From Candidatus Binatia bacterium (lineage in GTDB: Bacteria; Desulfobacterota; Binatia; UBA9968; JAJDTQ01): a stretch of 34,130 bases of DNA. The stretch's first letter is position 1. Every line of letters begins with the position of its first letter. A program made the translations under genes and the position numbers. The stretch spans positions 1 to 34,130 of the forward strand of contig JAJDXX010000244.1 of assembly GCA_022823055.1 (NCBI GenBank), in the 5' to 3' direction. This document shows positions 7,524-32,784 of the stretch, one piece after another. The notes beneath the pieces were generated by a model. The model was not told the DNA's origin. It did not search any database and worked only from the letters and a program-made list of their open reading frames with translations.

Positions 7524-8630
7524 TCAAAGCTTGTAAAAGGCGAGGCCGTTCTCACGCAGGATCTTCCGCTTGACGGCCTCGGAGATGTCGGTGCGTTCGC
7601 GCAACTCTTCGATGCCCGTCTCGCGCGCCTCGGCATGGGGGATATCGCCCTCGATGAGGATCTGGTCCTCGCCCACCAGCTCGATCACCTGGGGCAGCAG
7701 CGGTTCCTCCGCCTCGCACGTCACGTAGACCCGGCCTTCCTTGAGGTATTCGCTGGGCGGCTTCTTCGACCGGTTCCCCAGCATCGCCACCACCGGATGG
7801 TAATGGTCCATCCGTCCCACCATGTAGGGGATCCACTCGGAACCGGCCTCCAGGAACGCTACCCGCAGCTTCGGGAAGCGGTCCAGCACGCCGCCGCCCA
7901 CGATGCTGAAGAAACCCATGAGCACCGGCAACGTGAAGCTCAGGATCAATGCGGCGTAGGGGTCCTCACAGGTCCGGGTCAGGCCCGGCGCGCTCCAGCC
8001 CGTGTGGATGCACACCGGCAGGTCCACCTCGCAGGCCGCCGCGTAGAACGGCGACAGGTCGGGATGGTGCAGCAAGGTCTGGCCCGCGGTGCCGCCGATC
8101 ATCAGCCCCACGGCGCCCAGCTCTCGGGCGCGCCGGACCTCCGCCACACACGCTTCGCGGTCGCGCATGGGAATGACCGCGGCCCACTTCAACCGATCGG
8201 GGCGTTCATTGCACCGTTGCGAGATCCAGGTGTTGTAGCTGCGCATCAAGGCGGCTTCGAATCGGGCATCGTCGGTAAGACGGTGGAACAGGATGGAGGA
8301 GAAGATCACCTGGATGTCGATGCCGAAGGCATCCAGGTCCCTGATCCGGGCGTCGATGTCCGTCATGCCCTGGCTGCCGATGTTGAATACCTTGTCGCGG
8401 GCGAACTTCATCTCCAGCGGAGTGCCGCTGAAGGTGGTGCCCTTACCCCACAGGCGGGGATGGACCTGGCCGTCGATGAGCCACCACGCGTCGATGTGGG
8501 AGTTGGTCGCCAACCCCTCCCCCTGCACGACCACCGGCGCGCGGTGGCGGAACTCGTCGTCCAGAAAGGCCCAGGTCTCGCGCACTTCCATGACGTGCGA
8601 ATCGGCATCAACGACGTCGATCTGTTTCAT
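7524..8630 (-). CDS. Amidohydrolase family protein (ACMSD-like)
   Basis: MKQIDVVDADSHVMEVRETW... with IHTGWSAPG and FLEAGSEWIPYMVGRMD, typical of the amidohydrolase_2 family. Confidence 0.85.
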   Translation of the reverse strand: MKQIDVVDADSHVMEVRETWAFLDDEFRHRAPVVVQGEGLATNSHIDAWWLIDGQVHPRLWGKGTTFSGTPLEMKFARDKVFNIGSQGMTDIDARIRDLDAFGIDIQVIFSSILFHRLTDDARFEAALMRSYNTWISQRCNERPDRLKWAAVIPMRDREACVAEVRRARELGAVGLMIGGTAGQTLLHHPDLSPFYAAACEVDLPVCIHTGWSAPGLTRTCEDPYAALILSFTLPVLMGFFSIVGGGVLDRFPKLRVAFLEAGSEWIPYMVGRMDHYHPVVAMLGNRSKKPPSEYLKEGRVYVTCEAEEPLLPQVIELVGEDQILIEGDIPHAEARETGIEELRERTDISEAVKRKILRENGLAFYKL

Positions 8631-9952: not shown

Positions 9953-10286
9953 GCGGCTCCTGTCTTGGTTTACGCGTAGCTGCAACAAAGGATACTTACG
10001 TTGCCGACGTGAAACCATAGCTCGCCGGTGAAACAACGGTTCACTACTTTATAAGAACATATACCGTTGTCCGGAGCAAGCATCCGGGCTAACGTTCCTC
10101 GCCGCGGCGAAAAGTTATTGACGGCGGAAAAGGGCGGCGGAAAAGGAGAGAGTTTCTGCGTGCTGGCGCCGTCGATCCCGCCGCGCTAGACTTCCGGCAT
10201 TCACGGCCCGCCGCGCGGAACCGGTTGGGACGGGAGCGAGGCGGATGTGGAGGGAGGCGGCGGCGCCGGTGGGAATCGGAGGGAAC

Positions 10287-10925
10287 ATGAAACTCTACGG
10301 CTACTTTCGGAGCTCGGCGTCCTACCGGGTGCGCATCGCTCTGTCGCTCAAGGGCCTGGACTACGACCTTCAACCCATCCATCTGCGCCGCGGGGATCAG
10401 CGGGCGATGGACTACCTTGCGCGAAATCCCCAAGGACTGGTCCCGGCGCTGGTGGATGACGGAAAGGTGCTCACGCAATCCCTGGCCATCATGGAGTATC
10501 TGGAGGAACGGTTTCCGGAACCGGCTCTGCTGCCCGGCGACGCGGCGGACCGGGCGTGGGTGCGGGCGCTGGCGCAGGTAGTGGCCTGCGACATCCACCC
10601 GATCAACAACCTGCGGATCCTGCAGTACCTGGAGAACGACCTGGAACTGGACGACGGCGCCCGGGCCGCGTGGGCCCGGCGGTGGATCGAGGACGGGTTT
10701 GGCGCGCTGGAAGCAATGCTGAAGGACGACCCGCGCACCGGGGACTACTGCTTCGGAGACAATCCGACGCTCGCCGATATCTGCCTCGTCCCGCAGATCT
10801 TCAACTCGCAGCGTTTCGCCGTGGACATGGGGCGGTTCCCCACCCTGGCGCGGATCCACGAGAACTGCATGCGCCTTTCCGCGTTCAAGGACCAGGCCCC
10901 CGAACGACAGCCCGACGCCGAATGA
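10287..10925 (+). CDS. maiA: Maleylacetoacetate isomerase / zeta-class glutathione S-transferase
   Basis: MKLYGYFRSSASYRVRIALSLKGLDYDLQPIHL (SSxxxRVRIAL zeta-GST motif), NPQGLVPAL, QSLAIMEYLEE, CDIHPINNLRILQYL. Confidence 0.88.
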   Translation: MKLYGYFRSSASYRVRIALSLKGLDYDLQPIHLRRGDQRAMDYLARNPQGLVPALVDDGKVLTQSLAIMEYLEERFPEPALLPGDAADRAWVRALAQVVACDIHPINNLRILQYLENDLELDDGARAAWARRWIEDGFGALEAMLKDDPRTGDYCFGDNPTLADICLVPQIFNSQRFAVDMGRFPTLARIHENCMRLSAFKDQAPERQPDAE

Positions 10926-13143: not shown

Positions 13144-14670
13144 ATGCGGAACCATTTGCGAACCACTTTCCTGGCCCTGGCCGTCGCAATACTTGCCCTG
13201 AGCCTTGCGGCCAACACGGCGTGGGCACAGAAGAAGACCCGTGTCACCATCGGCGCCACCGAAACCATGGAGACCCACAACCCGTACGGCGACAGCGTGG
13301 CGCTGCTCTACGGCATCTACACGGAGTTGGCCGGCCCCCTGTGCAAGTACAACTGGAGCAACGGCAGTTGGGAGCCGCGTCTGGCCAAGAGCTGGAAGGT
13401 CGTGGACCCCAACAACTGGGTGTTCGAGCTGGACCAGCGCTACAAGTTCAACGACGGCAGCCCGGTGACGGCCCACGACATCGTCCACTCCATCTGGCGC
13501 ATCTTCAACGACCCGCAGAGCAAGCAGAAGGCATCCGTGGCCCGTCCGGTCAAGGAGGTCAAGGCGCTCAGCGACTTTTCCGTGCAGGTTACGACCCACA
13601 AGCCCACCGCGCCGCTGCTGGACTTCCTCTGTGACGGCCTGATCATCACGAGCAAGGCGGTGTACGACAAGTACGGCCCGGCGGAGGCCGACCGGAAACA
13701 CCACTTGGGCGGCGGCCCCTACGAGCTGGTGGAGCTGGTGCAGGGCCAGCGCATGGTCATCCGGAAGCGCCCCGATCACCCGGCCATGTCGAGGAATCCC
13801 GACGCTCCGGACGAGGTCGTCTTCCGCGTCATGCGCGAGACCGAGCAGCGGGTGGCGGCCCTCATGAACAACGAGGTGCAGGTCGCGCAGCTCATCCCGC
13901 CGCATCTGATGAAGACGGTGGAAAACTCCGACAGACACAAGATCGTGAAGATCCAATCCCTCGTGATCATGTTCCTGGGCATGCAGCCCAAGCCGCCCTT
14001 CGACAAGAAGGAAGTGCGCCAGGCGGTGTGCTACGCCATCGACCGGGACAAGATCATCGCGACCCTGCTGCAGGGACAGGCGCAACGGCTCGACGGGCCC
14101 CTGGGTCCCGGCCAGTTGGGATACAACCCGAACCTGAAGGCCCGCTACACCTACGACCCCAAGAAAGCGCGCGAACTGCTGACGCAGGCCGGGCATCTGG
14201 GCGTCGAGGTGGAGCTGCAGACCCCGGTCGGCCGCTACATCCTGGACAAGCAGGTGACCGAGGCCATGATCCCGATGCTCAACGCCGCGGGCTTCAAGGC
14301 CAAGCTGCGGACGCCGGAGTGGCCCACCCTCTGGGCCAACGTCCAGGTGGGCAAAGTGCCGTTCTTCTACATGGGCCGTGGCGGCGTTCTTGATCCGAGC
14401 TCGGCGTTCCACCAGTACTTCAGAAAGGGCGGCTCGCCGCGGATCGGTTTCTCCCATCCCGACATCGACGCGGCCCTCGACAAGGAACAGCAGGAGTTCG
14501 ATCCGGTGAAGCGCAACGAGTACCTCACCGACGCCATGGAGCTGATCACGGACATGGCGCCCGCCTGCTTCCAGTGGCGGCACGAGTTCCTGTGGGGCAT
14601 GGCGAAGGACATCGACTATCAGCCTCCGGCCGACTCGCGCATCTACGGCATGGACATCAAAGTGAAGTAA
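13144..14670 (+). CDS. ABC transporter substrate-binding protein (peptide/nickel family 5)
   Basis: Signal peptide (ALAVAILALSLAANTAWA), LAKSWKVVDPNNWVFELDQRYKFNDGSPVTAHDIVHS, VRQAVCYAIDRDKI. Confidence 0.9.
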   Translation: MRNHLRTTFLALAVAILALSLAANTAWAQKKTRVTIGATETMETHNPYGDSVALLYGIYTELAGPLCKYNWSNGSWEPRLAKSWKVVDPNNWVFELDQRYKFNDGSPVTAHDIVHSIWRIFNDPQSKQKASVARPVKEVKALSDFSVQVTTHKPTAPLLDFLCDGLIITSKAVYDKYGPAEADRKHHLGGGPYELVELVQGQRMVIRKRPDHPAMSRNPDAPDEVVFRVMRETEQRVAALMNNEVQVAQLIPPHLMKTVENSDRHKIVKIQSLVIMFLGMQPKPPFDKKEVRQAVCYAIDRDKIIATLLQGQAQRLDGPLGPGQLGYNPNLKARYTYDPKKARELLTQAGHLGVEVELQTPVGRYILDKQVTEAMIPMLNAAGFKAKLRTPEWPTLWANVQVGKVPFFYMGRGGVLDPSSAFHQYFRKGGSPRIGFSHPDIDAALDKEQQEFDPVKRNEYLTDAMELITDMAPACFQWRHEFLWGMAKDIDYQPPADSRIYGMDIKVK

Positions 14671-14730: not shown

Positions 14731-14828
14731 GATTTGGCACGCCGGTGGCCGGTCCCGAAACTCACGGGGACCCGCGCGCGGGACGCGAAACCGGCGTCCC
14801 CGGACAAGACACTGAATGGAGGGCTTTC

Positions 14829-15731
14829 ATGAAACCCCGATTCCGCGGCATCTTCATCCCGACCCTCACCACCTTCGACGACGACGGCGAGGTGGACTTC
14901 GACATCCTGGGCGATATGCTGGAGTTCCACGTCGCCGCCGGCGTACACGGCCTCTTCGTGCTCGGCTCCACCGGCATGGGCCCGGCCATGACCACGGAAC
15001 AGCGCGTCGCCACGGCGGAATTCGTCATGGAACGGGTCAGGGGACGCGTCCCGGTCGTCATGCACGCGGGGACCGCCGACGTGCAGACCACCTGCCGGCT
15101 CGCCCGGCACGCCCAGGGCCTGGGGGTGGACGCGGTGGCCGTGGTGCCGCCGTACTACTATACCGACCACACGCCGTGGGAGATCACGGCGCATTTCAAG
15201 ACCGTGGCGGACGCCGTGAACGGCACCCCGCTGTTCCTCTACGACAACGTGAAGTATTCCGGCTGGGCCTTCACTCCGGCCACCGCCAAGGCCTTGCAGA
15301 GCGAAGTGCCGGCGCTTTGCGGCATGAAGGCGAGCTACTACGCCCAGGGACCCCTGCTCGGTTACCTCGAAGCCATGCCCAAGGACTTCGCCGTCATGTC
15401 GGGAAACAGCATCGACCTGCTTCCGGCGACGCCCCACGGGCTCAGCGGCGCCATCCCGCCCTTGACCAGCGCGATTCCCGAGATCTGCGTGGCCCTGTGG
15501 AACGCCCTGGAGCACCGGGATTACGAGGCGGCCGTGCCGCTGCAGAAGAAGGCTGACGACTTCGGGCGCGCCATCGGCCGCCTGGGGCAGCGGTTCGGCC
15601 GCAGCGCGCATCGGGAAGCCATGCGCGCCCGCGGCTTCAAGATCAAGCGCTACCCGCGCTGGCCGTCGGAGGAGCTGACCGAGGAAGCGATGCAGACCGT
15701 CGCGGACGCCTTGAAGGCCACCGGCGTCTGA
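14829..15731 (+). CDS. Dihydrodipicolinate synthase (DapA) family protein
   Basis: FRGIFIPTLTTFDDDGEVDFDIL...GVHGLFVLGSTGMGPAMT...VDAVAVVPPYYY...LYDNVKYSGW...CGMKASY (Schiff-base Lys context). Confidence 0.88.
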   Translation: MKPRFRGIFIPTLTTFDDDGEVDFDILGDMLEFHVAAGVHGLFVLGSTGMGPAMTTEQRVATAEFVMERVRGRVPVVMHAGTADVQTTCRLARHAQGLGVDAVAVVPPYYYTDHTPWEITAHFKTVADAVNGTPLFLYDNVKYSGWAFTPATAKALQSEVPALCGMKASYYAQGPLLGYLEAMPKDFAVMSGNSIDLLPATPHGLSGAIPPLTSAIPEICVALWNALEHRDYEAAVPLQKKADDFGRAIGRLGQRFGRSAHREAMRARGFKIKRYPRWPSEELTEEAMQTVADALKATGV

Positions 15732-15762: not shown

Positions 15763-16194
15763 TCAGGCCTTCTTCTCCCCGGAGGCGGGGGCGGGCGGCT
15801 CGAGGTCCCAACCCTGGGCGGAGATGTCCATGATCACGCCGTTGGGGCCGCGCACCTTTTCCTCGAAGTAGAAGCTGTGGTGGGAGCCGACGGCGTCGCC
15901 GAGGATCTCGGCGCCGGTGCCGTCGAGCTTCGCGTTGGCCTCCTGGACATCCTCCACCTGGAACCCCATGTGGTGGAGCCCCTCGTAGGCGGCGCCGCCG
16001 ACCATGTCCGCGGCCTCGTCGGAGGGGTAGTTCAGGAACGCGAAGTTGACGTGTCCGTCCGAGAGGAACACGCCGCCGCCGCGCGGCGAGTCGGGCACCT
16101 TCTTGATGAACTTGAGCCCAAACACCTTCTGGTAAAAGGCCGCGGTCTTGTCCGGATCCTTGGTGGCGATGGCGATGTGCCTCAAGCGTGCCAT
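15763..16194 (-). CDS. VOC-family (glyoxalase/dioxygenase superfamily) protein
   Basis: MARLRHIAIATKDPDKTAAFYQKVFGLKF...VFLSDGHVNFAFL...GLHHMGFQVEDV...GVIMDISAQGW. Confidence 0.88.
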   Translation of the reverse strand: MARLRHIAIATKDPDKTAAFYQKVFGLKFIKKVPDSPRGGGVFLSDGHVNFAFLNYPSDEAADMVGGAAYEGLHHMGFQVEDVQEANAKLDGTGAEILGDAVGSHHSFYFEEKVRGPNGVIMDISAQGWDLEPPAPASGEKKA

Positions 16195-16246
16195 GAGTCC
16201 TCCTCCTTCTTCTCTTCGTGCATGCTCCCGGCTGAAGCGGACGCGG

Positions 16247-16957
16247 TCAGTCCACCGCTTCCATGGCCCGGCCGACGCCGCCGAGAAACACCTGCCAGAA
16301 CTCCAGCGACTGCCGCGCGGCGTCCAGGATGCCCTCCCACTGGACTTCCGTCGTGGCGTAGTTGGCCAGCAGGTCCATGGTCTGGCCCTTATGGTCGGTA
16401 TCGGCCTCGCGGTGCAGCCTGAAATTGGGCAACTGCTCCTCGCTCAGGCCTAGGTCCGTCATCCAGCGCTCCTGGGCGCGCGTCTGGTGCGCGCCGCCGG
16501 GAATGATCGGGTCCAGGTTGACCCGCTCCAGCACCGCCACGCCGCCGAGCCCCTCCAGCCACCCCAGGTTGAAGGCCAGCCAGCTCCAGCCGGCGATGGC
16601 CGCCCGGGTGGTGGGCAGCGGCCGTGCGTGGTGCACCTCGTCCGCGGTGAGACCCACGGCCTCGCCGTGCCGCACCCACAGGGTGTAATGGTCGGAGCCG
16701 CAACGCGGATCGAAGAGCATCTCCTCGGTCTCGTGCTCCAGCAGTTCCTTCTTGACCTCCATGTGCGGGCAGCGTGCGATGAGGTAGGCCCAGGCCGAGC
16801 GCCGGCCGCGCACGAACAGACTGAACTGCTGCGCGATGATCTGCGCCCGGCGCGGCGTCAGCCGCACCTCGTAGAATTCCTGGACCTCGGGAGCGGCAAA
16901 CGCCTCCCGGGTCAACTGGTTCAGCATCTCGTCGTACCGTGTTGCCGTCGCGTCCAT
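16247..16957 (-). CDS. TenA/PqqC-like iron-containing redox enzyme family protein (HDO-type), copy 1
   Basis: LLEHETEEMLFDPRCGSDHYTLW and FRLHREADTDHKG: HExxE plus HxxxDxxH, consistent with a heme-oxygenase-like diiron fold. Confidence 0.7.
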   Translation of the reverse strand: MDATATRYDEMLNQLTREAFAAPEVQEFYEVRLTPRRAQIIAQQFSLFVRGRRSAWAYLIARCPHMEVKKELLEHETEEMLFDPRCGSDHYTLWVRHGEAVGLTADEVHHARPLPTTRAAIAGWSWLAFNLGWLEGLGGVAVLERVNLDPIIPGGAHQTRAQERWMTDLGLSEEQLPNFRLHREADTDHKGQTMDLLANYATTEVQWEGILDAARQSLEFWQVFLGGVGRAMEAVD

Positions 16958-16979
16958 CGTCCCTTCTCCCTCTCCCTTC

Positions 16980-17696
16980 TCAGGCTTCCACCGGTATGCG
17001 CTCCATGGCCTCCAGCACCCCGGCGCGATAGATGGTCATGAGCTCCATGGACTCCCTGACGGCGCGCAGCGCCTCTTCCTGCAACGGTCCGGTGGCGTGC
17101 TTCTCGAGGTCGGGCAGGAACATGTCGCTGTGCTCCTCGTCGGCCTGGGAGTGCACGTCGAAGTTGGGCATCTGCTTCATCTTGAAGCCCATGTCCTCGC
17201 TCCAGCGCCGGCCCATGCGGGTGGAATGGCCGCCCCCGTGGTCCCCCAGCAGGCGGTCATCGTTGCACCACTCCGTCACCGTCAGCGCGGCCAACCCCTC
17301 CAGCCAAGGCTTCTCCCGGGTGATCCAGCCCCAGGCGTAGAGCACGGCGCGGGTGGTGGGGAGCGGGTCGGCGTTCAGGATGTCCTCGGGCTCAAGCCCC
17401 ACCAGCTTGCCCTGGTTCACGATCAGGGTGATGTGGCCGTGCTCGCTGAACTCGTCCTTGATCACCTCTCCGTACTCGTGCTGCAGGATCTTCTGCTTGA
17501 CCGACCAGACCGGGCAGTTGCCGGACACGTGCGCCCAGCAATCCCTGCGGTGGCGGATGAAATGAGCCAGCTCCCGGACGATCACCTGGGCGCGCAACGG
17601 CGTCTGCTTGAGGTCGAAGTAGCGGGTCACGACATCGGAAGCGGAATGCTCCCGCACGATGTCGCCGATGGCCTTGCGCCACTCATGAACTTCCAT
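16980..17696 (-). CDS. TenA/PqqC-like iron-containing redox enzyme family protein (HDO-type), copy 2
   Basis: ILQHEYGEVIKDEFSEHGHITL and FDVHSQADEEHSD, the same HExxE and HxxxDxxH motifs; LTPxRAQ-like segment TPLRAQVIVRELAHFIRHRRDCWAHV. Confidence 0.7.
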   Translation of the reverse strand: MEVHEWRKAIGDIVREHSASDVVTRYFDLKQTPLRAQVIVRELAHFIRHRRDCWAHVSGNCPVWSVKQKILQHEYGEVIKDEFSEHGHITLIVNQGKLVGLEPEDILNADPLPTTRAVLYAWGWITREKPWLEGLAALTVTEWCNDDRLLGDHGGGHSTRMGRRWSEDMGFKMKQMPNFDVHSQADEEHSDMFLPDLEKHATGPLQEEALRAVRESMELMTIYRAGVLEAMERIPVEA

Positions 17697-17770
17697 GTTC
17701 CGTCCCTCCCGGTCCTGTGCGGCGTCCGGCGAGCCGTCTCATGCTTCGCGGGACCACGACACGTTTCCAC

Positions 17771-19336
17771 TCAATAGCCGATGGCGCAGCCGTCCTTGCG
17801 CGCATCCGACCCGCCCATGAGAACCCCGGTTTCCGGCTCGACGGCGATGGCGTGAGCGCCACCGAAGCTCTCGGGCGCCCCGGAGACCACTTGGTGGCCG
17901 CGCGCCTCCAGGGCGCTGACGGTGGCCGCGGCGACGCCCGGTTCCAGCGCCACTTCCACGCCGGACAGGTGGTTGAACCGGAGTGCGTCCAGCGCCTCCT
18001 GCGCGCTCATGCCGAAGTCCACCACGTTGCTGATGATCTGGCTCTGCACCTGGGCCTGGACGTGGCCGCCCTTGAGCCCCACCACCAGCACCGGGCGCCC
18101 GTCCCGACACACCATGCCCGGCATGAGCGTGTGGCTGCAACGCTTGTGCGGGCCGAGGCAGTTGGGATGCCCTTCCTCGAGGCAGAACATGTGGCCGCGG
18201 TTCTGGAGCACGATGCCGGTGTCCTCCACCGCCACGCCCGAGCCGAAGCCCATGAACAGGCTCTGGATGAAGGACACCCGGTTGCCCTTGCCGTCGGCCA
18301 CGGCCACGTACTCGGTGTCCCCTGCCACCGGGGCCGCGTCCACGCGCGCCACCGCCGTGTCCATGGAGATGCCGCTCCGCAGGGCGGCGATGCGTGGTTC
18401 CGCCACCAGGTCGCACCAGCTCACGGTCATGCTGTCGCGGTCGGACAGGTAGAGCTCGCGGTCGGCAAAGGCGCGTTTCTTGGCTTCGATGAAGAGATGG
18501 AGGTGGTCGGCGCCGTTGTGCTCCATTGAGCCGAGGTCGTATCCCTCCAGGATCCCGAGCATCTCCAGCGCCACGAACCCCTGCGTGGCCGGCGGCAACT
18601 GGTACACCTCGTGGCCGCGGTACGACGCGCGCATGGGCTCCACCCACTCCGAGGCATGCTCCTCCATGTCGCGCATGCCGAAGGCGCCGCCGAGCTTGCG
18701 GGAGCAAAGCACGAGCTTCTCCGCCACTTCCCCGCGGTAGAAATATTCGGCTCCCCCCTCGGCGATGCCACGCAACGTACGGGCCAGATCCGGCTGCTGG
18801 AAGATTTCCCCCGGCCCCGGCGCGCGTCCGTCCACCAGGTAGCCCGCCGCCGCTTCCTCGTTCTTCCGCAGCTTGCCCTCCAGGCCGCGCCACTCCTCGC
18901 TGGTAAAGGCGCTCACCGGGAACCCTTCCTCGGCGTAGCGGATGGCGGGCTCCAGCAGCGCCGCCAAGGTGCGGGTACCGTGGGTTTCCAGAAGCGTCTG
19001 CCACCCGTGCACCGCGCCGGGCACCGTCACCGAGTGGATCCCGGTCTGCGGCACCGCGTCCAGCCCCTCCTTCCGGAAGGCCTCGGCATCGGCCGCGTAG
19101 GGAGAGCGGCCGCTGGCATCCAGCGCCTTCATTTCGCCGGTCTCGGCGATGTAAAGAAGCGCGAAGGCGTCGCCCCCGATGCCGATGGACATGGGCTCCA
19201 GCACCCCGAGCATGGCCGCCGTGGCCACCGCCGCGTCCACCGCGTTGCCGCCCTCCGCCAGCACCTGGACGCCCACCAGCGACGCCAATCGCTGGCTGCA
19301 GGCGACCATCCCGTTCCTGCCCATGACCGTGCCCAT
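17771..19336 (-). CDS. ggt: Gamma-glutamyltransferase family protein
   Basis: NGMVACSQRLASLVGVQVLAEGGNAVDAAVATAAMLGVLEPMSIGIGGDAFALLY; GDTEYVAVADGKGNRVSFIQSLFMGFGSGV region around the processing Thr. Confidence 0.88.
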   Translation of the reverse strand: MGTVMGRNGMVACSQRLASLVGVQVLAEGGNAVDAAVATAAMLGVLEPMSIGIGGDAFALLYIAETGEMKALDASGRSPYAADAEAFRKEGLDAVPQTGIHSVTVPGAVHGWQTLLETHGTRTLAALLEPAIRYAEEGFPVSAFTSEEWRGLEGKLRKNEEAAAGYLVDGRAPGPGEIFQQPDLARTLRGIAEGGAEYFYRGEVAEKLVLCSRKLGGAFGMRDMEEHASEWVEPMRASYRGHEVYQLPPATQGFVALEMLGILEGYDLGSMEHNGADHLHLFIEAKKRAFADRELYLSDRDSMTVSWCDLVAEPRIAALRSGISMDTAVARVDAAPVAGDTEYVAVADGKGNRVSFIQSLFMGFGSGVAVEDTGIVLQNRGHMFCLEEGHPNCLGPHKRCSHTLMPGMVCRDGRPVLVVGLKGGHVQAQVQSQIISNVVDFGMSAQEALDALRFNHLSGVEVALEPGVAAATVSALEARGHQVVSGAPESFGGAHAIAVEPETGVLMGGSDARKDGCAIGY

Positions 19337-19411
19337 GTGTTCTCCGTCTGGACGGCGTCCCTTGAAACGTCATTGATATGGTAGTTACGGAATCCCGCTA
19401 CACACCAACGA

Positions 19412-19505
19412 GTCATTCCCGCGGAAGCGGGAATCCAGGCGGGGTGGGGCCGGGCAATGAGGCCGCCACACCCCCCACCTGGATTCCCGCTTCCGCGGGA
19501 ATGAC
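19412..19505. repeat. Inverted-repeat element, copy 1 (94 bp)
   Basis: gtcattcccgcggaagcgggaatccagg ... cctggattcccgcttccgcgggaatgac. Confidence 0.9.
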
Positions 19506-19552
19506 GGTTCAAAGGGCGATCCTTCCGCCGAACCTTCCCGCCACCCTTCGGG

Positions 19553-20251
19553 CTACGCCGCCTGGGTCTCCTCCACCTCCACCATGGCCGAGCCCAGCGC
19601 CCCGCGGTAGGCCCGATCCAGGGCCAGGCAGTCCCGCGCCGCCCGGATGATCAGGGCGCCGGTGTCCGCGTCGCGCACGTACTTCTCGAACACGGGGTCG
19701 AACATGTCCGAGTGGCCGATGTCCGCGGTCATGTGGAGCTGGGTGTTGGCGTCGAGCTTCTCCACGGAGCCCACGATCTCGTGCGCCTTCTTCATGGCCA
19801 TGCGGTGGGTGAAGCCGCCGCCCTTGACGATCTCGTTGTTGTTCTTCCGCTCGGTGGTGTGGTTGACCATCAGGGACTCGATCCACGAACGCGTGGAGCA
19901 CAGGTGGAACCACGCCCAGAACGCCGCCCGCGCCCCCGGCAGGAGCCTGGCCTCGTCCGCGGCCGCAGCCATCTCTTCGTCGGTGAGGTGGGCCGATCCC
20001 AGCCGTTCGTCGAAGATCAGCTCGTCCTTCTCGTGCTCCCAGATGGCCCGCTTCACGTCCAGCGGCGCCTTGCCCGCGGCCACCGCCCAGCAGTCGCGCC
20101 GGCTCTTGATGTAGTGGGGGTAGTGGAGGTCGAGGATGGCTTGGCGCGCCGGGGTGAGGCGCACCCCGAAGATCCGCCGGTACTCGGCGCTCTCGAAATG
20201 CCGGTTCACCATCTCGTCGACGACGGTGCGGGCCTTCGTCCACTCGCTCAT
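19553..20251 (-). CDS. TenA/PqqC-like iron-containing redox enzyme family protein (HDO-type), copy 3
   Basis: IWEHEKDELIFDERLGSAHLT and TQLHMTADIGHSDMF: HExxE plus HxxxDxxH. Confidence 0.7.
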   Translation of the reverse strand: MSEWTKARTVVDEMVNRHFESAEYRRIFGVRLTPARQAILDLHYPHYIKSRRDCWAVAAGKAPLDVKRAIWEHEKDELIFDERLGSAHLTDEEMAAAADEARLLPGARAAFWAWFHLCSTRSWIESLMVNHTTERKNNNEIVKGGGFTHRMAMKKAHEIVGSVEKLDANTQLHMTADIGHSDMFDPVFEKYVRDADTGALIIRAARDCLALDRAYRGALGSAMVEVEETQAA

Positions 20252-20330
20252 GGGTCACCTCCGTTCCGGGCGTTCCCGCCCCACGCCGGGACCGTGCCGG
20301 GAGGGGCGGGCTCCGGAGACACTCGTGTGC

Positions 20331-20669
20331 TCAGACGGGCCAGCCGTGCTCGGAGACGTCCACGCGGTTGTCCTCGGGATCGGTGATCCAGCTCTCCGCG
20401 ATGGCGCCGTAGGTGTTGGCGTTGGCGGTGGCCTGCGTCGAGTCCTCCACGGCCTTGACGCTGTCCACCACGAAGCCGAAGTGGTGGATGCCGTAGGGCA
20501 GGTTCGGACTGCTGATGAGCGCCACGTCCACGTGCCCGTCGGAGAGGTAGATGGTGCCGTTGGGTCCGCGGGACTTCTCCTCCAGCCCGAAGTGCTCCTT
20601 GTAGTATTCCGCCACCTTGTCGCGGTCGTGGGTGTTGATGGCGATGTGCCGTATCCTGGGCCGTGCCAT
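20331..20669 (-). CDS. VOC-family protein (paralogue of 15763..16194)
   Basis: MARPRIRHIAINTHDRDKVAEYYKEHFGLEE...IYLSDGHVDVALI...GIHHFGFVVDSV...RVDVSEHGWPV. Confidence 0.85.
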   Translation of the reverse strand: MARPRIRHIAINTHDRDKVAEYYKEHFGLEEKSRGPNGTIYLSDGHVDVALISSPNLPYGIHHFGFVVDSVKAVEDSTQATANANTYGAIAESWITDPEDNRVDVSEHGWPV

Positions 20670-20710: not shown

Positions 20711-21733
20711 TCAGTTTCCGATGATGTCCCTGAGCTTGGCCTTGACCGCGGGCGAGGCGGCGAGCACCTGCTTCACCTGGGCCGCGACGTCTCCCGCCGA
20801 CACGTGATCGATGGTCATCCGGGTCTTCTTGGCGAGCGCCAGAAACTCGGGGTCCTCGAGCGTGGCCTTGAAGGCCTTGCGCAGAACCTCGACGGCTTCG
20901 GCGGGGGCCTTCGGCGGAGCGGCGAACGGGCGGAAGAAACGGTACTGGGCCATCCACGCGTTGAACGCCTCCAGGTCCTCCGCGCCCTTGATGAAGTCGG
21001 TGTACTTGGGCAGCCCCTTCACCTGGGGATCGCTGGAATCGCCCTGCAGGAGCACGGGGATCAACCGGTCGTCGCCCTTGGCGTTCAGCATGTCGCGGGC
21101 GGTGATCTTCATGGACACCCACTGCCAGCAGGCGCCGTCCACCTCGCGCCGGGTCATGGCGGCGCGAATGCCCGCCGTGCCCTGGTAGCCGGGCACCAGC
21201 TTCACGTTGGCGCCGATCAACTGCTTGAGGATCCTGGGCTGCTCGCGGGTGCTGCTGCCCGCCGCCCCCATGGTCAGGGTCTTCTTGGATTTCACCACGT
21301 CGTCGAGGGTCTTGACGCCGCTGAAGCCCATGAACGCGCACGCGGGCATGCCCACGCTCGGCGCCCCGATCCACTGGAACTTGCCGGCGTCGAACTTGAT
21401 CCCCTCCGTGCCCATGGTCTGCTCCATGACGAGGCCGCTGATGAGCATGGCAAAGGTCAGACCGTCCGGCTTGGCGACGTTGTACAGGTAGTTGGCGGCG
21501 ATGAGACTGCCCGCCCCGGGCATGTTCTGCACGATGAGGTTGGGCTTGCCCGGCAGGTGCTTGGGCATGTGGCGCGCGATGGCGCGCGCGTAGGTGTCGT
21601 ATCCGCCGCCGGGCGACGTGCCGACGATGAGCCGCAGCGTCTTGCCGGTGTAGTCCGGAGCCGCATGGGCCGCGGCCAGCCAGCACAACGAAGCGACCAC
21701 TACGAGACAACCGAGGGTCCTGATCCTGGGCAT
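20711..21733 (-). CDS. Tripartite tricarboxylate transporter receptor (TctC/Bug family)
   Basis: Signal peptide, YTGKTLRLIVGTSPGGGYDTYARAIARHMPKHLPGKPNLIVQNMPGAGSLIAANYLY. ATG at 21733 preceded by GGAGGAATTC. Confidence 0.9.
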   Translation of the reverse strand: MPRIRTLGCLVVVASLCWLAAAHAAPDYTGKTLRLIVGTSPGGGYDTYARAIARHMPKHLPGKPNLIVQNMPGAGSLIAANYLYNVAKPDGLTFAMLISGLVMEQTMGTEGIKFDAGKFQWIGAPSVGMPACAFMGFSGVKTLDDVVKSKKTLTMGAAGSSTREQPRILKQLIGANVKLVPGYQGTAGIRAAMTRREVDGACWQWVSMKITARDMLNAKGDDRLIPVLLQGDSSDPQVKGLPKYTDFIKGAEDLEAFNAWMAQYRFFRPFAAPPKAPAEAVEVLRKAFKATLEDPEFLALAKKTRMTIDHVSAGDVAAQVKQVLAASPAVKAKLRDIIGN

Positions 21734-21983
21734 GAATTCCTCCGGAGCGTTTGAAAACGCCGTTGCTGGGCGTTGGCGAAACCGAAACCGCCTTCGGTAG
21801 TTCATCCCCATTTACTCCTCTTCGGTCTCCCGGTTCAACCCCGGCGGGACAGCCTCCAACCGGAGTCCCGTGGTTTTCCCCGTTCGCGGGGAAATCGCGG
21901 CTGGTGTATACGGTAAGGAGCCGTCATCTCTTTGCCGGCCCGGCACGAAGCGACAGGCAACGACCTCGAGGGAGGACGACACC

Positions 21984-22901
21984 ATGGACAAAATTCATTT
22001 CCCCTACCGCTCCGCGAGTCACCTGGCGTTCCTTCACGTGGCGGCGCAGTCCGGCGCGTGGGAGGAGCATGGCCTCGACGTGGAGTACGACGCCTACATC
22101 AGCTCCGAGGACGCGCACAAGTTCGTCGCCGACGGCAGCGTCGAGTTCGTCGGCGGTAACCACGTCTCCACCTACGGCGCGCGCATGCGCGGCGACCAAT
22201 GGCTCTACCTGGGGCAGACCGTGAGCTGGCTCGACCACCGGCTGGTGGTGCGGGCGGACTCCGGCATCGACGGCGTGTCGGACCTCAAGGAGAAGGTCGT
22301 GGCCATCCGCGGCAACCACCCAGGCCTCAACACGTGGCTGTTCCTCAAGCAGCACGGGCTCGACCAGGACCGCGGCGACGTGACCCTTGAAAGGATCCGC
22401 GGCGCCGCCACCTGGGAAATGGTTCGTGACGGCGACGCCGACGCGGCGCTGGTGAACCCGCCCGCGGACCTTTTCGCCCAACGCGCCGGGTTGAAGGTCA
22501 TCGACGTCGATCCCCTGCCCATGGTGTGGTTCACCACCATGTCCAGCGGACGGAAGTTCGTGGACGGTCACCCGGACATCGTGGAACGCTTCCTCAAGGG
22601 CGCATGCCAGGGCATCGCCTACTTCAAGACGCACCGGCAGGAGTCCATCCAGATCATCCAGGACCGGTACAAGACCGACGGCGACCTGGACCTGGAGGCC
22701 GCCACACGCCTGTGGGAGAGCATCTCGAAGATCCTGAGCCCGAAGCCCTACGCGTCGTTCCAGGCCGTGGGCAACGTATATGAACTGGCCAAACGCAAGG
22801 ATCCGGCCGCCGCGCAGGTCGAGCCCACGTCGCTATGGGACTACCACCACCTGCGCAGGATCGACGACAGCGGATTCATCGACAGCCTGTACCAGACGTA
22901 A
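21984..22901 (+). CDS. NMT1/THI5-like substrate-binding family protein
   Basis: PYRSASHLAFLHVAAQSGAWEEHGLDVEYDAYISSEDAHKFVADGSVEFVGGNHV...SDLKEKVVAIRGNHPGLNTWLFLKQHGLD. No signal peptide from the ATG with GGAGG upstream. Confidence 0.75.
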   Translation: MDKIHFPYRSASHLAFLHVAAQSGAWEEHGLDVEYDAYISSEDAHKFVADGSVEFVGGNHVSTYGARMRGDQWLYLGQTVSWLDHRLVVRADSGIDGVSDLKEKVVAIRGNHPGLNTWLFLKQHGLDQDRGDVTLERIRGAATWEMVRDGDADAALVNPPADLFAQRAGLKVIDVDPLPMVWFTTMSSGRKFVDGHPDIVERFLKGACQGIAYFKTHRQESIQIIQDRYKTDGDLDLEAATRLWESISKILSPKPYASFQAVGNVYELAKRKDPAAAQVEPTSLWDYHHLRRIDDSGFIDSLYQT

Positions 22902-25004: not shown

Positions 25005-26036
25005 CTACTTCCCGGACACGAGTTCCTTGTACTTGTCGAGAAGCTCCTTCGGCGCGCCGTAAAGGTCCGTGACGGTCTTCTCGATGGTCTGCGGAGTAGC
25101 GGGCGAGATGACCAGGTTCTGCCGCTCGGCCTGCTTCAGGAGCTCCGGGCTGCTCAGAGCGGCCATGAAGCCTTTGCGCAGGATCGCCACGCGGTCCGGG
25201 GGCGTGCCCGGAGGCAGGGCGAACAACCGCAGCAGCTTCCACGTCCCCACCAGGAAGTCCGCCATGCGCTGCTGCTCGGCATCGAGCTTGAGATCCTTGA
25301 GCCTGGCGATGCCCGGGATCGGCTTGAGCCGCGGCTCCTCTCCCATGGAAAGGATCGGGCGCACGAGGCCGCTCTTGATGTAGCGCCGGTAGTTGCCCTG
25401 CATGGTCTGCTGGGACATGACCCGCGCGTCCAGTTCCTTTCGTTCCATGGCGGCCATGACGTTGGAAGTGCCGCGATAGCCCATGACCGCCTTGATGGGA
25501 TAACCCAGGTGGCGCAGGAACAGAGTGGCCGCGGTGGATGCGGAGCCGACACCGGTCGATCCGGCGTGCAGGGTCTTCTTGGAGTTCTTGAAATCGTCGA
25601 ACGTCTTGACGGGAAGGTCGCTACGGACCCAGAGAACCTCCGGCAGGCTCCCGATGGCCGGATCCGTAATCCAGATGAACTTCCGTGGGTCGAACGTGAT
25701 GTTCTTGCTTCCCACCACCGCATCGACGAGCGAGCCCGCGTTGAACACCACGATCGTGCGACCGTCGCCCGGTTGCATGGCATAGACGCGGTTGGCCGCG
25801 GCTTTGCTCCCTGCTCCCGGCATGTTCATCACGATGATCGAGGGATTGCCGGGGATGTGGGCGCTCAGGTAGCGGCCCACCAGGCGAGAGAACGTGTCGA
25901 AGCCGCCGCCGGGACTGTAGCCCACGACGATACGGATCGTCTTGCCTTTGTAGAAGGGCTCGTCCGCGGCCCAAGCGCCGCCGGACGCCAGCGCCAGCGC
26001 GACGAGTCCCATCAACGTCGAACGCAGTATCTTCAT
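25005..26036 (-). CDS. Tripartite tricarboxylate transporter receptor (TctC/Bug family)
   Basis: MKILRSTLMGLVALALASGGAWAADEPFYKGKTIRIVVGYSPGGGFDTFSRLVGRYLSAHIPGNPSIIVMNMPGAGSKAAANRVY. Confidence 0.9.
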   Translation of the reverse strand: MKILRSTLMGLVALALASGGAWAADEPFYKGKTIRIVVGYSPGGGFDTFSRLVGRYLSAHIPGNPSIIVMNMPGAGSKAAANRVYAMQPGDGRTIVVFNAGSLVDAVVGSKNITFDPRKFIWITDPAIGSLPEVLWVRSDLPVKTFDDFKNSKKTLHAGSTGVGSASTAATLFLRHLGYPIKAVMGYRGTSNVMAAMERKELDARVMSQQTMQGNYRRYIKSGLVRPILSMGEEPRLKPIPGIARLKDLKLDAEQQRMADFLVGTWKLLRLFALPPGTPPDRVAILRKGFMAALSSPELLKQAERQNLVISPATPQTIEKTVTDLYGAPKELLDKYKELVSGK

Positions 26037-26141
26037 CGGAAATTCCTCCTCTGGACCATACCCGCCTGTCAGGACCCCGGGTGCGGCACTATCCGCCCCA
26101 CGGCTTACGGTCAACGGTTTCGAAGTTTCGCGGGACCGCCT

Positions 26142-26555
26142 TCAGAGGCCCGCCTTCGCCTTCAACTTGTCGATCAGCCGCACGGCCACCTCGATGTCCT
26201 CCTCCATGGTGCGCCCGCTCACGCCCACGGCGCCGACCACCGCGCCCTCCCCGTCCTTGACGAGCACCCCGCCGCCGATGGATGTCAGGTTGGCGTCGCC
26301 GTAGGCGGCGATGCCGCGGTTCCCGACCATCTTCTCGATCTCCACCGAGTCCCGGCCGAACCACAGGGCCGAGTATCCCTTGTTGTGGGAGAGGACACTG
26401 GAGCGGTAGGGCGCGCCGTCCATGCGCGTGTAATGCACCAGTTCTCGATGCGGGTTGAGCACCGCCCAGGACACCGGCCGCCCGGTTTCGTTGGCCAACT
26501 CGGCCAACAACTCGCCGGCCGCTTCGTGAATTACGCTGTGAGACAGTCCTGCCAC
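26142..26555 (-). CDS. GlcG/HbpS-type heme-binding family protein
   Basis: LSHSVIHEAAGELLAELANETGRPVSWAVLNPHRELVHYTRMDGA...SIGGGVLVKDGEGAVVGAVGVSGRTMEEDIEVA. Confidence 0.75.
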   Translation of the reverse strand: MAGLSHSVIHEAAGELLAELANETGRPVSWAVLNPHRELVHYTRMDGAPYRSSVLSHNKGYSALWFGRDSVEIEKMVGNRGIAAYGDANLTSIGGGVLVKDGEGAVVGAVGVSGRTMEEDIEVAVRLIDKLKAKAGL

Positions 26556-26714
26556 TTTGTCACCTCCGTTGGGGGTCGCCGGTAAAATGTGTTGTCTATT
26601 TTATCGCATCCCGTGGAGTCAAGCCGATTCGTCGACCTCATGCCATCATCGATACGCACCCTGGAGCCACAAAATCCGGGTTCACCCGGTACGCACCGGA
26701 GGGCGAGTGGATGG

Positions 26715-27941
26715 CTACAGGTCCGCTCTCCGGAGGTCGCGCCGCCACGCGAGCATGCCGAGGGTGGCGCCGGCGCAAACGGCGGCGCCGAGCAGTAGGG
26801 TGAACGCCGAGCCCAGAAAGGACGCCACCAACCCGGTCTGGGCCTCGCCGAGCCCGGGCATGCCCACGCTCAACATCCGGGTGAAGCTCGATACCCGGCC
26901 GCGCAGCGCGTCCGGCGTCACCGCCTGGATCACGGTGTTCCGCGGGATGGCCTGCATGGCGTCGAAGAAGCCCAGGAGGGCCACCATCGCGAAGGACGTC
27001 CAGAACCAGGGAGAGAGCGCGAGGCCGGCCAGACATACCGCGTAGGCCAGAATGCCGCCCACCACTACCAGTCCCTTGTAGCGGACATCGCCCACGCCGA
27101 TCATGGCCGCGGCACCCACGAGGGCACCCACCGCCGGCGCGGATGAGAAAAGCCCGAAACCTGTTGCCCCCATGCCGAAGCTCGCCGCGATGATCGGCAG
27201 GAGCACGCGAAAGCTGCCGAAGTACACTGCCACCACGTCCATGGCCACCAGCACGGCGATGATCGACTCCACGCGGACGAACGACAGGGCCTCCACAAGG
27301 CTTCTCCACGCCGACTGAGCGCTGCCCGCGTACGTGGCCCGATAGTTGACGAACACCAGCACCAGCGCGCTCACGAGATAGACGCAGCCGTTCAAGCCGT
27401 AGGTCGCGCTCGTGCCCGCGAAACCGATCATCAGGCCGGCTACCGCCGGACCCACGAGTTGCGCCAGCTTCCATGCCGTGGAGGTGAACGCGAAGGCGTT
27501 GAGCAGCAGCCTCTTGGGCACCATGTTGGGCGTCATGGCGGTGCGCGCGGGCGCGCTGATGGCCACGAAAGCGGAGCTCACCATCGAAATGAGCAGGATG
27601 TGCCACAAACGAACCGCGTCCGCGGCGATCAAGGCCGCCAGCAGCAGGTTGGCCGCGGCGCTGGCGAGCTGCATCGCCATGATGAATTTCTTGCGGTCGA
27701 TGCGGTCGGCGATGATGCCGCCGCCCAGCGAGAAGACCACGATGGGAATGCCGCGGGCCAGACCGGTGAGGCCCAGGAAGGCGGGCGAATCGGTCAGTTC
27801 GTAGACCAGCCACAGGTCCACGATCCGCTGGATCTGGTTGCCCATGGAGGCGCTGACCACCGCCATGTAGAAGTACGTGAAGTTACGGTAGGCGAAAGAG
27901 CCCCCGGCCCGCTGGAGTCTCGCATGGATACCCTGGAGCAT
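26715..27941 (-). CDS. MFS transporter
   Basis: FRNFTYFYMAVVSASMGNQIQRIVDLWLVYELTDSPAFLGLTGLARGIPIVVFSLGGGIIADRIDRKKFIMAMQ-like N-terminus; about 12 hydrophobic segments. Confidence 0.88.
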   Translation of the reverse strand: MLQGIHARLQRAGGSFAYRNFTYFYMAVVSASMGNQIQRIVDLWLVYELTDSPAFLGLTGLARGIPIVVFSLGGGIIADRIDRKKFIMAMQLASAAANLLLAALIAADAVRLWHILLISMVSSAFVAISAPARTAMTPNMVPKRLLLNAFAFTSTAWKLAQLVGPAVAGLMIGFAGTSATYGLNGCVYLVSALVLVFVNYRATYAGSAQSAWRSLVEALSFVRVESIIAVLVAMDVVAVYFGSFRVLLPIIAASFGMGATGFGLFSSAPAVGALVGAAAMIGVGDVRYKGLVVVGGILAYAVCLAGLALSPWFWTSFAMVALLGFFDAMQAIPRNTVIQAVTPDALRGRVSSFTRMLSVGMPGLGEAQTGLVASFLGSAFTLLLGAAVCAGATLGMLAWRRDLRRADL

Positions 27942-27984
27942 GAACCGTAGAGAGTTCGCCGAGCCGCGCGGGCGTCGCCGCGTT

Positions 27985-29589
27985 TCAGCGCCGGCTTCGC
28001 GCCGCCACCTCGTTGCGCAGGATCTTGCCCACCGGACTCTTGGGAATCGCCTCGGCGAACGCGATGCGATACGGCACCTTGTAGTGGGCCAACTCGTCCC
28101 TGAGGCTCTGTCGCAGGATCTCCGCCAACTCCGCGGACGCCCCCTGCCCCTCCGCCGGCACCACCACGCCGAGGACACGGTTGCCGATCTCGGGATCCGG
28201 CTCCGGCACCACCACGGCCTCGGCCACGGCGGGATGGCGCTGGAGCGCGTTCTCCACTTCCGTGGGCACGAGGAAGAGCCCGCGGGTCTTGAAGCAGTCG
28301 TCGCTGCGGCCGGCGATGAAGAAGTAGCCGTCCCCGTCCCGGTAGGCCAGGTCGCCGGTATCGTAGACGCCGTTGCGCCGGGCCGCTTCGGTGCGCTCGG
28401 GATCGCCGTGATACTCCACGAACAGCCCGGGGTCCCCGGTGGAGATCACCGTCCGGCCTACCGCGCCGTCCGCCACCGGGCATCCGTCCTCGTCGACGAT
28501 GGCGATGCCCACGTCCGGAGCCGGCACACCCACCGAGCCCGGCCTCACCGGGTGACGCGCCCCCTGCCCGACCACGAGCTGGTACTCCGACACCCCGTAG
28601 TGCTCGTACATCTCGCAGCCGAAGCGCGCTTTCCACTGGCGATACGTGGCTTCGCGAAGTGCCTCGCCGGTGGAGTGCACACCCCGCAGGGTGTGGATGT
28701 CGTACGCGTCCTCGATGCCCTCCGTGGCCAGCATCCGGCGGTAGACCGTGGCTACCGAGTGCAGCAGCGTGACGCGGAAGGTGGCCACGTGTTCCAGCAC
28801 GTTCTCGGGCGTGGCCCGGCCCGACAGCACCGCGCAGGTGACGCCGTTGCGCAACGGGAAGAGCAGGTTGTGGCCCAAGGCGCTGATGAAACTCCACTCC
28901 CCCGTGGCCATCACCACGTCTTCGGGCTCCGGCGGAAGGCGGTAGCGGTTGAGGTCCCCGAGCGCCACGATCCAGCGGTGCGCGTGCACGATGCACTTGG
29001 GCCGGCCGGTGGTGCCGGACGTGCACACCATGAAGGCCGGTTCGTGGGCGGACGTGTCTCTCGTGGGGAAATCGTTTCGTGATTCGTCGTCCGGAGCTTC
29101 GCCGCCGACGGTATCGAAAGGGACTTCGCCGTCCTCGGCCTCCCCGGCGCAGATCACGGCCTCCAGCCCCATGGGCGCGCGAACCTCGCGCAACGCCTGG
29201 GCGCGGGAGCCCTCGGTGACGGCGAACCGGGGCTTCGTCTGCTCGAGGATGGCCCGGACTTCCCGCACCCCCAAGAGCGAGTTGACCACTACCGGGAGCG
29301 CGCCGAGCTTCACCGCGGCGAGGAAGGCCATGGCGAACTCCGCCGAGTTGGGCATCCGCACGAGCACCCGCTCCCCCGGCGCGACCCCCAGCCGCTGGAG
29401 CCCACGGGCGAAGCCGCGCACCCTGCCGCGCAACTCGCCGTAGCTAAGCGAGCCGCCGTGCCACACCATCGCGGTGCGCCTTCCATGGCCCGCCGCCACC
29501 GGGCGCTCCAGCACTTCCTCGGCGAGGTTGAGCCTGGATGGGATCTTCCTATAGCCCGGCCACGGGGCCGCGGATTCAGAGTTGCTCAT
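27985..29589 (-). CDS. AMP-dependent acyl-CoA synthetase (benzoate/aryl-CoA ligase-like)
   Basis: FMVCTSGTTGRPKCIVHAHR, YEHYGVSE, VYDTGDLAYRDGDGYFFIAGRSDDCFKTRG, IPKSPVGKILRNEV. Confidence 0.9.
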   Translation of the reverse strand: MSNSESAAPWPGYRKIPSRLNLAEEVLERPVAAGHGRRTAMVWHGGSLSYGELRGRVRGFARGLQRLGVAPGERVLVRMPNSAEFAMAFLAAVKLGALPVVVNSLLGVREVRAILEQTKPRFAVTEGSRAQALREVRAPMGLEAVICAGEAEDGEVPFDTVGGEAPDDESRNDFPTRDTSAHEPAFMVCTSGTTGRPKCIVHAHRWIVALGDLNRYRLPPEPEDVVMATGEWSFISALGHNLLFPLRNGVTCAVLSGRATPENVLEHVATFRVTLLHSVATVYRRMLATEGIEDAYDIHTLRGVHSTGEALREATYRQWKARFGCEMYEHYGVSEYQLVVGQGARHPVRPGSVGVPAPDVGIAIVDEDGCPVADGAVGRTVISTGDPGLFVEYHGDPERTEAARRNGVYDTGDLAYRDGDGYFFIAGRSDDCFKTRGLFLVPTEVENALQRHPAVAEAVVVPEPDPEIGNRVLGVVVPAEGQGASAELAEILRQSLRDELAHYKVPYRIAFAEAIPKSPVGKILRNEVAARSRR

Positions 29590-29736
29590 GCTTCCCGGGA
29601 TTCCGATCCGCGCTCCAGCGTTGCCGGTCCTCTCCGGTGCCCCACGTGCTCACCGTCTTCCCCATGTTTCCGCCGTCCCACGGGCCCTCCAACGTCGGTC
29701 GGATCAACCCGCGGCCGCAACACGACAGACCGGCTG

Positions 29737-30648
29737 TCATTCCTTCTTGCCGGTCTTCTCGGGGAACGGCCACCCTGCGTCGTAAGGGTAGGTGTAACGC
29801 GGCGGACGCTTCTCCCGGAACGCCCGCATGCCCTCCTGGCAGTCCTTGGTGCGGGTGATCTCGAGTACCGACTCCAGCTCCTCGCGGTAGCCCTCGTCGG
29901 TGCGGTTCCAGTTCCAGTACATCTTCACCAGCCGCTTGGCGTGGCGCACCGACAGGTAGGGGTTGGCGGCGATGCGGCCGGCCAGGCCGAAGGCCTGCTC
30001 CATCAGCTCCTCGTGCGGAAACACCTCGTCCACCAGCCCGATGCGCAGCGCTTCGGCGGCGTCGACGATCTCGCCCGTGAGGATCAGGCGCATGGCGCGT
30101 CCGATGCCCACGAGCTTGGGCAGGTTGCGCGAGCCGCCGCTTTCCGGCACGAACCCCGCGGGCACCGCCACCTCGCCGAAGCGCGCTCGCTCCGACGCGA
30201 GCCGCATGTCGCACAGCGTGGTCATCTCCAGGCCCACGCCCACCGCCGGCCCGTTCACCGCGGCGATGGTGGGCTGGGGCAGGTCCTCCAGCTTGCGCAT
30301 GGCGCTCTGCAGCACCCGGTGCCGGAGATCGTTCAGGAAATACTCCGCCAGCTCCTTGTAGGGCCCCTCGATGCCGCTTGACCCCTCGAACGCGCCGAGA
30401 ACGGCACCCTCCGAGGTGAGGTCCCCGCCGGCGCAGAATCCGCGCCCCTCGCCCGTGAGGATCACCACCTTGAGCACGGAGTTGCGCGCGATCTCGTTGC
30501 ACAGGGCGTCGAGCTCCAGCCGCATGAGCGGGTCCACCGCGTTGAGCTGCTCCGGCCGGTTGAGCGTGATCACGCCGATGCACGGCTCCCCCGCCCGCAG
30601 CGGATTGTCATGCACGGCCCACTTGAGCGTCTTGTAGTCCATGGACAA
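29737..30648 (-). CDS. Enoyl-CoA hydratase/isomerase (crotonase) family protein
   Basis: VITLNRPEQLNAVDPLMRLEL, ILTGEGRGFCAGGDL, PTIAAVNGPAVGVGLEMTTLCDMRLASERARFGEVAVPAGFVPESGGSRNLPKLVG. Confidence 0.9.
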   Translation of the reverse strand: MSMDYKTLKWAVHDNPLRAGEPCIGVITLNRPEQLNAVDPLMRLELDALCNEIARNSVLKVVILTGEGRGFCAGGDLTSEGAVLGAFEGSSGIEGPYKELAEYFLNDLRHRVLQSAMRKLEDLPQPTIAAVNGPAVGVGLEMTTLCDMRLASERARFGEVAVPAGFVPESGGSRNLPKLVGIGRAMRLILTGEIVDAAEALRIGLVDEVFPHEELMEQAFGLAGRIAANPYLSVRHAKRLVKMYWNWNRTDEGYREELESVLEITRTKDCQEGMRAFREKRPPRYTYPYDAGWPFPEKTGKKE

Positions 30649-30757
30649 CGGCTCCTTTCGCTAACGCCGGAGAACACGACCCGGCCGCCCTGGCTCCGCC
30701 CCTGGATTTCCGCTTGCCAGGGCGAGTCAAAACTCCGAGGCACCAACCCCGTGAACC

Positions 30758-30854
30758 GTCATTCCCGCGCAAGCGGGAATCCAGGGGTGGTGGTGTGGCG
30801 GCTCCGTTGCCCCGGCCCACACCCCGCCTGGATTCCCGCTTTCGCGGGAATGAC
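30758..30854. repeat. Inverted-repeat element, copy 2 (97 bp), opposite orientation to copy 1
   Basis: gtcattcccgcgcaagcgggaatccagg ... cctggattcccgctttcgcgggaatgac; the core matches the reverse complement of copy 1 (gtgtggcggc...ttgcccggcc). Confidence 0.9.
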
Positions 30855-30952
30855 GGGAGATGAGACGCTGGATTTGTAACCTACTGATTTATCTGGGCAA
30901 TTGTTTATTTTCATATCAATGACGACAAGAGAGGGGTCGGCATTGTCGCGGC

Positions 30953-32632: not shown

Positions 32633-32784
32633 GATTGGTCCTTTTGTGGGGAGTTGCCGTGAGTGGAGTGTGACAATGTAACGTACCCTCGCCGGGGAAG
32701 TCCAGGAAGGAGATTCCACAACGCTGCCGCTCTGCTCGTCCGTCGAGTCTTGACGAAAGACGTCCCGACGTCTACTCTTTGGGA

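Follow-up and report, generated by a model that had tools for sequence, protein, structure and literature searches.

A conserved gene cluster with three heme-oxygenase-like dimetal oxidases in a Candidatus Binatia genome: a possible role in aromatic-acid catabolism

The DNA analysed here (the window) is a stretch of 34,130 nt, contig JAJDXX010000244.1 of assembly GCA_022823055.1, from a Candidatus Binatia bacterium. At its center the minus strand carries genes for two vicinal-oxygen-chelate (VOC) proteins, three heme-oxygenase-like dimetal oxidases (HDOs) and a gamma-glutamyltransferase (GGT)-like protein in the order VOC1, HDO1, HDO2, GGT-like, HDO3, VOC2, then a TctC gene; a preliminary description made from the sequence alone gave this order and the coordinates of these open reading frames exactly. 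With a probability of roughly 0.55, the conserved locus serves to break down an aromatic compound, probably carboxylated and possibly amide-bearing. In the proposed route, binding proteins (TctC, NMT1-like and SBP5) would capture the substrate, the GGT-fold Ntn hydrolase would in most species strip an amide group, and the three HDOs would hydroxylate or oxidatively decarboxylate the ring with O2. The single-domain VOCs would then perform or assist ring opening, in the position held in other related HDO loci by double cupins resembling gentisate and 5-aminosalicylate dioxygenases, and a GST-type isomerase and a DHDPS-family aldolase would process the opened product. We infer the metal loading, O2 chemistry, substrate class and step order of this scheme, and its catabolic, aromatic character is read from the neighbouring genes. 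Aromatic-acid catabolism is favoured because HDO genes adjoin ring-cleavage-type dioxygenases, because UbiD- and DHDPS-family genes recur beside them, and because the window itself encodes the isomerase.

Results

HDO1 (16247-16957, minus strand) and HDO2 (16980-17696, minus strand) matched the Pfam model Haem_oxygenas_2 (PF14518; 1e-18 and 3.5e-12, respectively). The divergent HDO3 (19553-20251, minus strand) gave zero Pfam matches, and its family membership was assigned from profile homology, ligands and fold. The 3H/3C ligand set that defines most HDOs (PMC13108848) is complete in each protein: E79, H90, E144, H182, D186 and H189 in HDO1; E77, H88, E142, H182, D186 and H189 in HDO2; and E77, H88, E134, H173, D177 and H180 in HDO3. 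These residues correspond to a Glu and a His on helix 1, a Glu on helix 2 and His/Asp/His on helix 3, and all six positions are invariant in 87 of 87 aligned relatives. Five of them match CADD E81, H88, H174, D178 and H181 residue for residue, as aligned for HDO1, and the sixth, the helix-2 Glu, aligns with the CADD helix-2 Glu by profile. As first quoted, HDO1-3 contain the HExxE and HxxxDxxH motifs. HExxE was nevertheless rejected as a metal motif, since of its residues the final Glu alone is a universal ligand; invariance of the His and the first Glu is confined to a 76-member core of the 87 relatives.

AlphaFold2 models covered HDO2 (pLDDT 93.8, 30 sequences) and HDO3 (pLDDT 84, 8 sequences), and the fold of HDO1 was assigned through PF14518. 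The HDO2 model matched metal-bound CtCADD with a TM score of 0.82. The best solved-structure matches of the two models were CADD, PqqC, BesC, TenA and UndA (for HDO3 PqqC, CADD, TenA and BesC, with E just above 0.001 and probability 1.00), and all top PDB matches share the heme-oxygenase-like seven-helix fold. HDO1, HDO2 and HDO3 are firmly placed as genuine HDO family proteins, as the preliminary description had proposed; as HDOs, they would be expected to bind two metals and to activate O2 through a peroxo intermediate.

Neighbourhoods of related HDO genes were examined at 22 other loci, from Binatia and from metagenome-assembled genomes (MAGs) labelled Myxococcota, Thermodesulfobacteriota and Pseudomonadota. 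A ring-cleavage-type dioxygenase, either a double cupin or a VOC protein, directly adjoins an HDO in 16 of the 22 loci, against 3.4 expected for random genes within the same loci (P<=5e-4). Since some cupin references came from HDO loci, a Pfam-based test within the window's own genome was also relied on, and there 4 of 11 HDO loci lie <=1.5 kb from a double cupin (P ~4e-5). The double cupins match 5-aminosalicylate and gentisate 1,2-dioxygenase models, most of them at 1e-80 to 1e-101. A DHDPS-family gene occurs <=2 genes from an HDO in 7/22 loci and a UbiD gene <=3 genes away in 9/22, and substrate-binding proteins recur throughout. At two of the loci (L114 and L118), EutA-like proteins (ethanolamine ammonia-lyase reactivating factor) adjoin tandem or single HDOs and cupins, and a 489-aa open reading frame occupies the same place in L122.

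The GST-type maleylacetoacetate (maleylpyruvate) isomerase (10245-10925, plus strand) scored 292 bits against the TIGR01262 cut-off of 171; it is the only copy above that cut-off in its genome and keeps its syntenic position in 6/6 genus loci. Because a search of this genome for a homogentisate dioxygenase found none, the isomerase probably acts in a different ring-cleavage route. The DHDPS/NAL-family class I aldolase or hydratase (14745-15731, plus strand; PF00701, 9.6e-44) conserves its Schiff-base Lys195 and Tyr166 in 14/14 sequences. The UbiD-family decarboxylase (30953-32806, minus strand), one of 32 UbiD copies in the genome, is 46% identical to the UbiD proteins encoded beside HDO3 (L069) or GGT (L053) in another family. 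FAA_hydrolase copies are present elsewhere in the genome.

VOC1 (15763-16194, minus strand; Pfam Glyoxalase, 7e-15) and the 112-aa VOC2 (20331-20669, minus strand) are single-domain proteins and paralogs, as first described (35% identical, E=7e-20). Each has an invariant triad: H6, H75 and D123 of VOC1 in 13/13 sequences, and H8, H63 and D104 of VOC2, counted from the ATG at 20669, in 28/28. Orthologs of VOC2 (64-77% identical) adjoin HDO2/HDO3 in another family. Like extradiol dioxygenases, the VOCs have His-His-carboxylate at the metal positions, and they gave a weak match to catechol 2,3-dioxygenase models. Unlike the type I enzymes, which have a 2-His-1-Glu Fe(II) site and two domains, they consist of one domain of 110-143 aa with Asp for Glu.

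The GGT-like gene (17771-19336, minus strand; PF01019, 6.5e-147) encodes a GGT-fold Ntn hydrolase whose catalytic nucleophile, Thr341, is retained in 18/18 orthologs. In the same 18/18, other residues stand at all six positions with which E. coli GGT holds gamma-glutamate: R114, N411, Q430, D433, S462 and S463 are exchanged for S, F, R, M/L, H and T, respectively. The closest solved relative is 2nlz, annotated 'cephalosporin acylase'. With 2nlz and 2i3o, GGT-family Ntn hydrolases that lack gamma-glutamyl specificity, the window protein shares the catalytic Thr and the absence of an R114 equivalent, but it differs from that group in its linkage to HDO and VOC genes. In the sister species G001 the gene is deleted except for a C-terminal remnant that follows HDO3; the HDO and VOC genes remain whole there, and only ~40% identical GGT paralogs occur elsewhere in that genome. 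In G018 the ortholog lies on a separate contig. At the G001 locus (L039:7939-8889) the HDO3 frame continues into the remnant (DGVLMGASDPRKDGCAIGF), a clear internal GGT deletion. Judged by these residues, the protein is probably an amidohydrolase and not a gamma-glutamyl enzyme.

The gene-neighbourhood survey proposed in the preliminary description found the locus in every member of the genus whose sequence is contiguous there, and its core of VOC2, HDO2 and HDO3, in many cases joined by the GGT-like gene, extends to a second family of the order. Clusters in family f3 (~10 genomes) comprise VOC2, one to four HDO2-type genes and HDO3; several of them also carry a GGT ortholog (57-61% identity) and have exported NMT1-type binding proteins interleaved between the HDO genes. 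In four of these loci (L054, L057, L053 and L056) such proteins alternate with HDO genes, with no obvious permease genes nearby. In G018, the genes right after HDO3 encode subunits I and II of cytochrome bd oxidase (L057:11307-13800).

In G013, orthologs of HDO1, VOC1, DHDPS and SBP5 (62-74%) cluster on a separate contig; the locus is therefore a junction at which two older modules, SBP5-DHDPS-VOC1-HDO1 and HDO2-GGT-HDO3-VOC2-SBP, have come together. HDO1, HDO2 and HDO3 fall in three well-separated clades of the tree and are ancient paralogs. The earlier proposal that a VOC-HDO module had been duplicated needs modifying accordingly: recent origin of a VOC-HDO pair by local duplication was rejected on the depth of the clades and the separation of the modules in G013. 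The genome has 13 PF14518 matches besides HDO3. A phylum-wide search of 396 genomes, few of them of the same order, found HDO3-like genes in the window's own genome only, and is read solely as rarity of the HDO3-like group outside the order. A search of plasmids gave no HDO2 match and VOC matches of only 28-36% identity.

GC content at third codon positions was 0.91-0.97 for the cluster genes (the gene caller used omitted VOC2), their composition by codon position being that usual for coding DNA, and dN/dS against the sister species was 0.05-0.26 for every cluster gene, indicating purifying selection. The mostly short gaps noted earlier measure 22-79 bp, apart from the 216 bp between the GGT-like gene and HDO3. 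That gap holds a perfect inverted repeat of a REP-like family (19412-19505, no strand assigned) and is ~20 bp in the sister genome G003, so the locus is most likely an otherwise tight operon interrupted by an inserted element. TctC is probably the first gene of the operon; promoter and terminator scans returned results at chance level. REP/REPIN-like repeats with GTCATTCCCGCGNAAGCGGGAATCCAG pairs ~70 bp apart lie at 19412-19505 and 30758-30854. The half-site has 483 exact matches in the genome (248 forward, 235 reverse), several of them at contig ends, so the repeat probably breaks the assembly.

The TctC-type orphan substrate-binding protein (20711-21811, minus strand; PF03401, 1.2e-8) is conserved in the genus. 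Divergently oriented to it is an NMT1/THI5-like binding protein (21870-22901, plus strand; PF09084, 2.2e-12), whose orthologs use a downstream start (~305 aa, MDKIHF...) and which has no evident signal peptide. SBP5, an SBP_bac_5 solute-binding protein (13144-14670, plus strand), belongs to the VOC1-HDO1-DHDPS module in G013. The family of the Amidohydro_2 (ACMSD/decarboxylase-like) protein (7524-8630, minus strand) recurs near HDO genes elsewhere. A second catabolic-looking group spans 25005-32806 and comprises TctC, HbpS-like, MFS, acyl-CoA ligase, enoyl-CoA hydratase and UbiD genes. A SEFIR/TIR-domain protein lies at the window edge (1-1452), where GC is lower than in the rest. The genome is a MAG of 4.27 Mb, 97.6% complete, and the public records nearest to it are MAGs that carry the label Candidatus Binatia or Deltaproteobacteria. 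Isolate names of some related MAGs suggest sponge hosts, consistent with published Binatota ecology (PMC8262859).

Discussion

The window proteins share the fold and the complete 3H/3C set of the HDO superfamily (CADD/PabS, UndA, BesC, SznF, FlcD/FlcE; PF14518/TENA-like), but they are ~15-20% identical to solved HDOs and HDO3 lies outside the Pfam models. Their loci also differ from known HDO systems in their catabolic-looking neighbours and in the number of paralogs, which in relatives reaches five in one cluster. Similar in gene content are the gentisate and 5-aminosalicylate 1,2-dioxygenase pathways, which combine a double cupin, a GST-type maleylpyruvate isomerase and a fumarylpyruvate hydrolase; their counterparts here are the double cupins at sister HDO loci, the maleylacetoacetate-isomerase-family protein in the window and the FAA_hydrolase elsewhere in the genome. 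Unlike in those pathways, the window has VOCs instead of a cupin, and HDOs would replace flavin or Rieske hydroxylases. A multi-step oxidative pathway, as suggested in the preliminary description, remains plausible. The literature searched held no match to this gene set, as that description had supposed, and no HDO-linked aromatic catabolism.

Several observations weigh against aromatic catabolism. A 2026 review of HDOs describes none that acts on an aromatic ring, and the word 'aromatic' is absent from its text (PMC13108848). VOC1 and VOC2 are single-domain and carry Asp in place of the extradiol Glu, which leaves ring cleavage by them unproven; the best NCBIfam match of VOC1, below cut-off, is methylmalonyl-CoA epimerase. 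The isomerase gene lies ~5 kb from VOC1 on the opposite strand, and the double-cupin matches fall below the NCBIfam equivalog cut-offs. The P value for the 16 of 22 loci is not fully independent, because some of the cupin references had been picked from HDO loci and the 22 loci are themselves related, and all genomes compared are MAGs.

The main rival is a specialised-metabolite cluster in which HDOs oxidise an amino or fatty acid and the binding proteins serve to take back a metallophore or the product. The HDOs characterised so far do work mainly on amino or fatty acids within natural-product pathways (PMC13108848), and two HDOs can serve one pathway, as FlcD and FlcE do for fluopsin C (PMC11363339). 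We regard this explanation as unlikely, since the HDO neighbours are uptake proteins, decarboxylases, ring-cleavage-type dioxygenases and aldolases, no assembly-line, peptide-ligase or carrier-protein genes occur among the scanned genes in or beside the core cluster (one MFS gene lies ~5 kb beyond TctC), and biosynthetic companion genes such as those for fluopsin C, streptozotocin or polyoxin are absent from the Pfam-scanned window genes and the related loci scanned. That the HDOs are instead non-oxygenases, metal-independent or self-sacrificing fold members of the PqqC, TenA or CADD kind, appears very improbable. PqqC and CADD are among the top structural matches, but the complete ligand set is invariant, the review (PMC13108848) classes the roles of this fold in PqqC and in thiaminase-type proteins as metal-independent, and many paralogs per genome with differing partners suit catabolic enzymes better than a single cofactor pathway.

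The preliminary description favoured an oxidative pathway on a gamma-glutamyl or glutathione-linked compound, and most genus members do have a GGT-family gene within the cluster, as several genomes of another family have one adjoining HDO3. The GST-type isomerase family also uses glutathione, but as a cofactor. Since the gamma-glutamate-binding residues are replaced and the gene is lost in G001 with HDO and VOC genes kept, and lies on a separate contig in G018, a gamma-glutamyl substrate was rejected and such a pathway is the least credible of the explanations considered; the GGT-like protein would be an accessory hydrolase.

Aromatic-acid catabolism, if correct, would give a catabolic role to a superfamily described mainly from biosynthesis and would constitute a non-Rieske, non-flavin route of ring hydroxylation. 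The broader proposal, that HDOs are widespread aromatic-acid ring oxygenases feeding cupin or VOC ring cleavage in Binatia and some other bacterial groups, is put forward tentatively, at somewhat less than even chances. Characterised HDOs number only about a dozen, most of them acting on the biosynthetic substrates named above (PMC13108848), and with a large lineage-expanded group tied to ring-cleavage genes the superfamily would reach into carbon catabolism. Hints of function would follow for numerous unannotated 'iron-containing redox enzymes', as would ideas on the way in which Binatia associated with sponges and soil exploit aromatic carbon.

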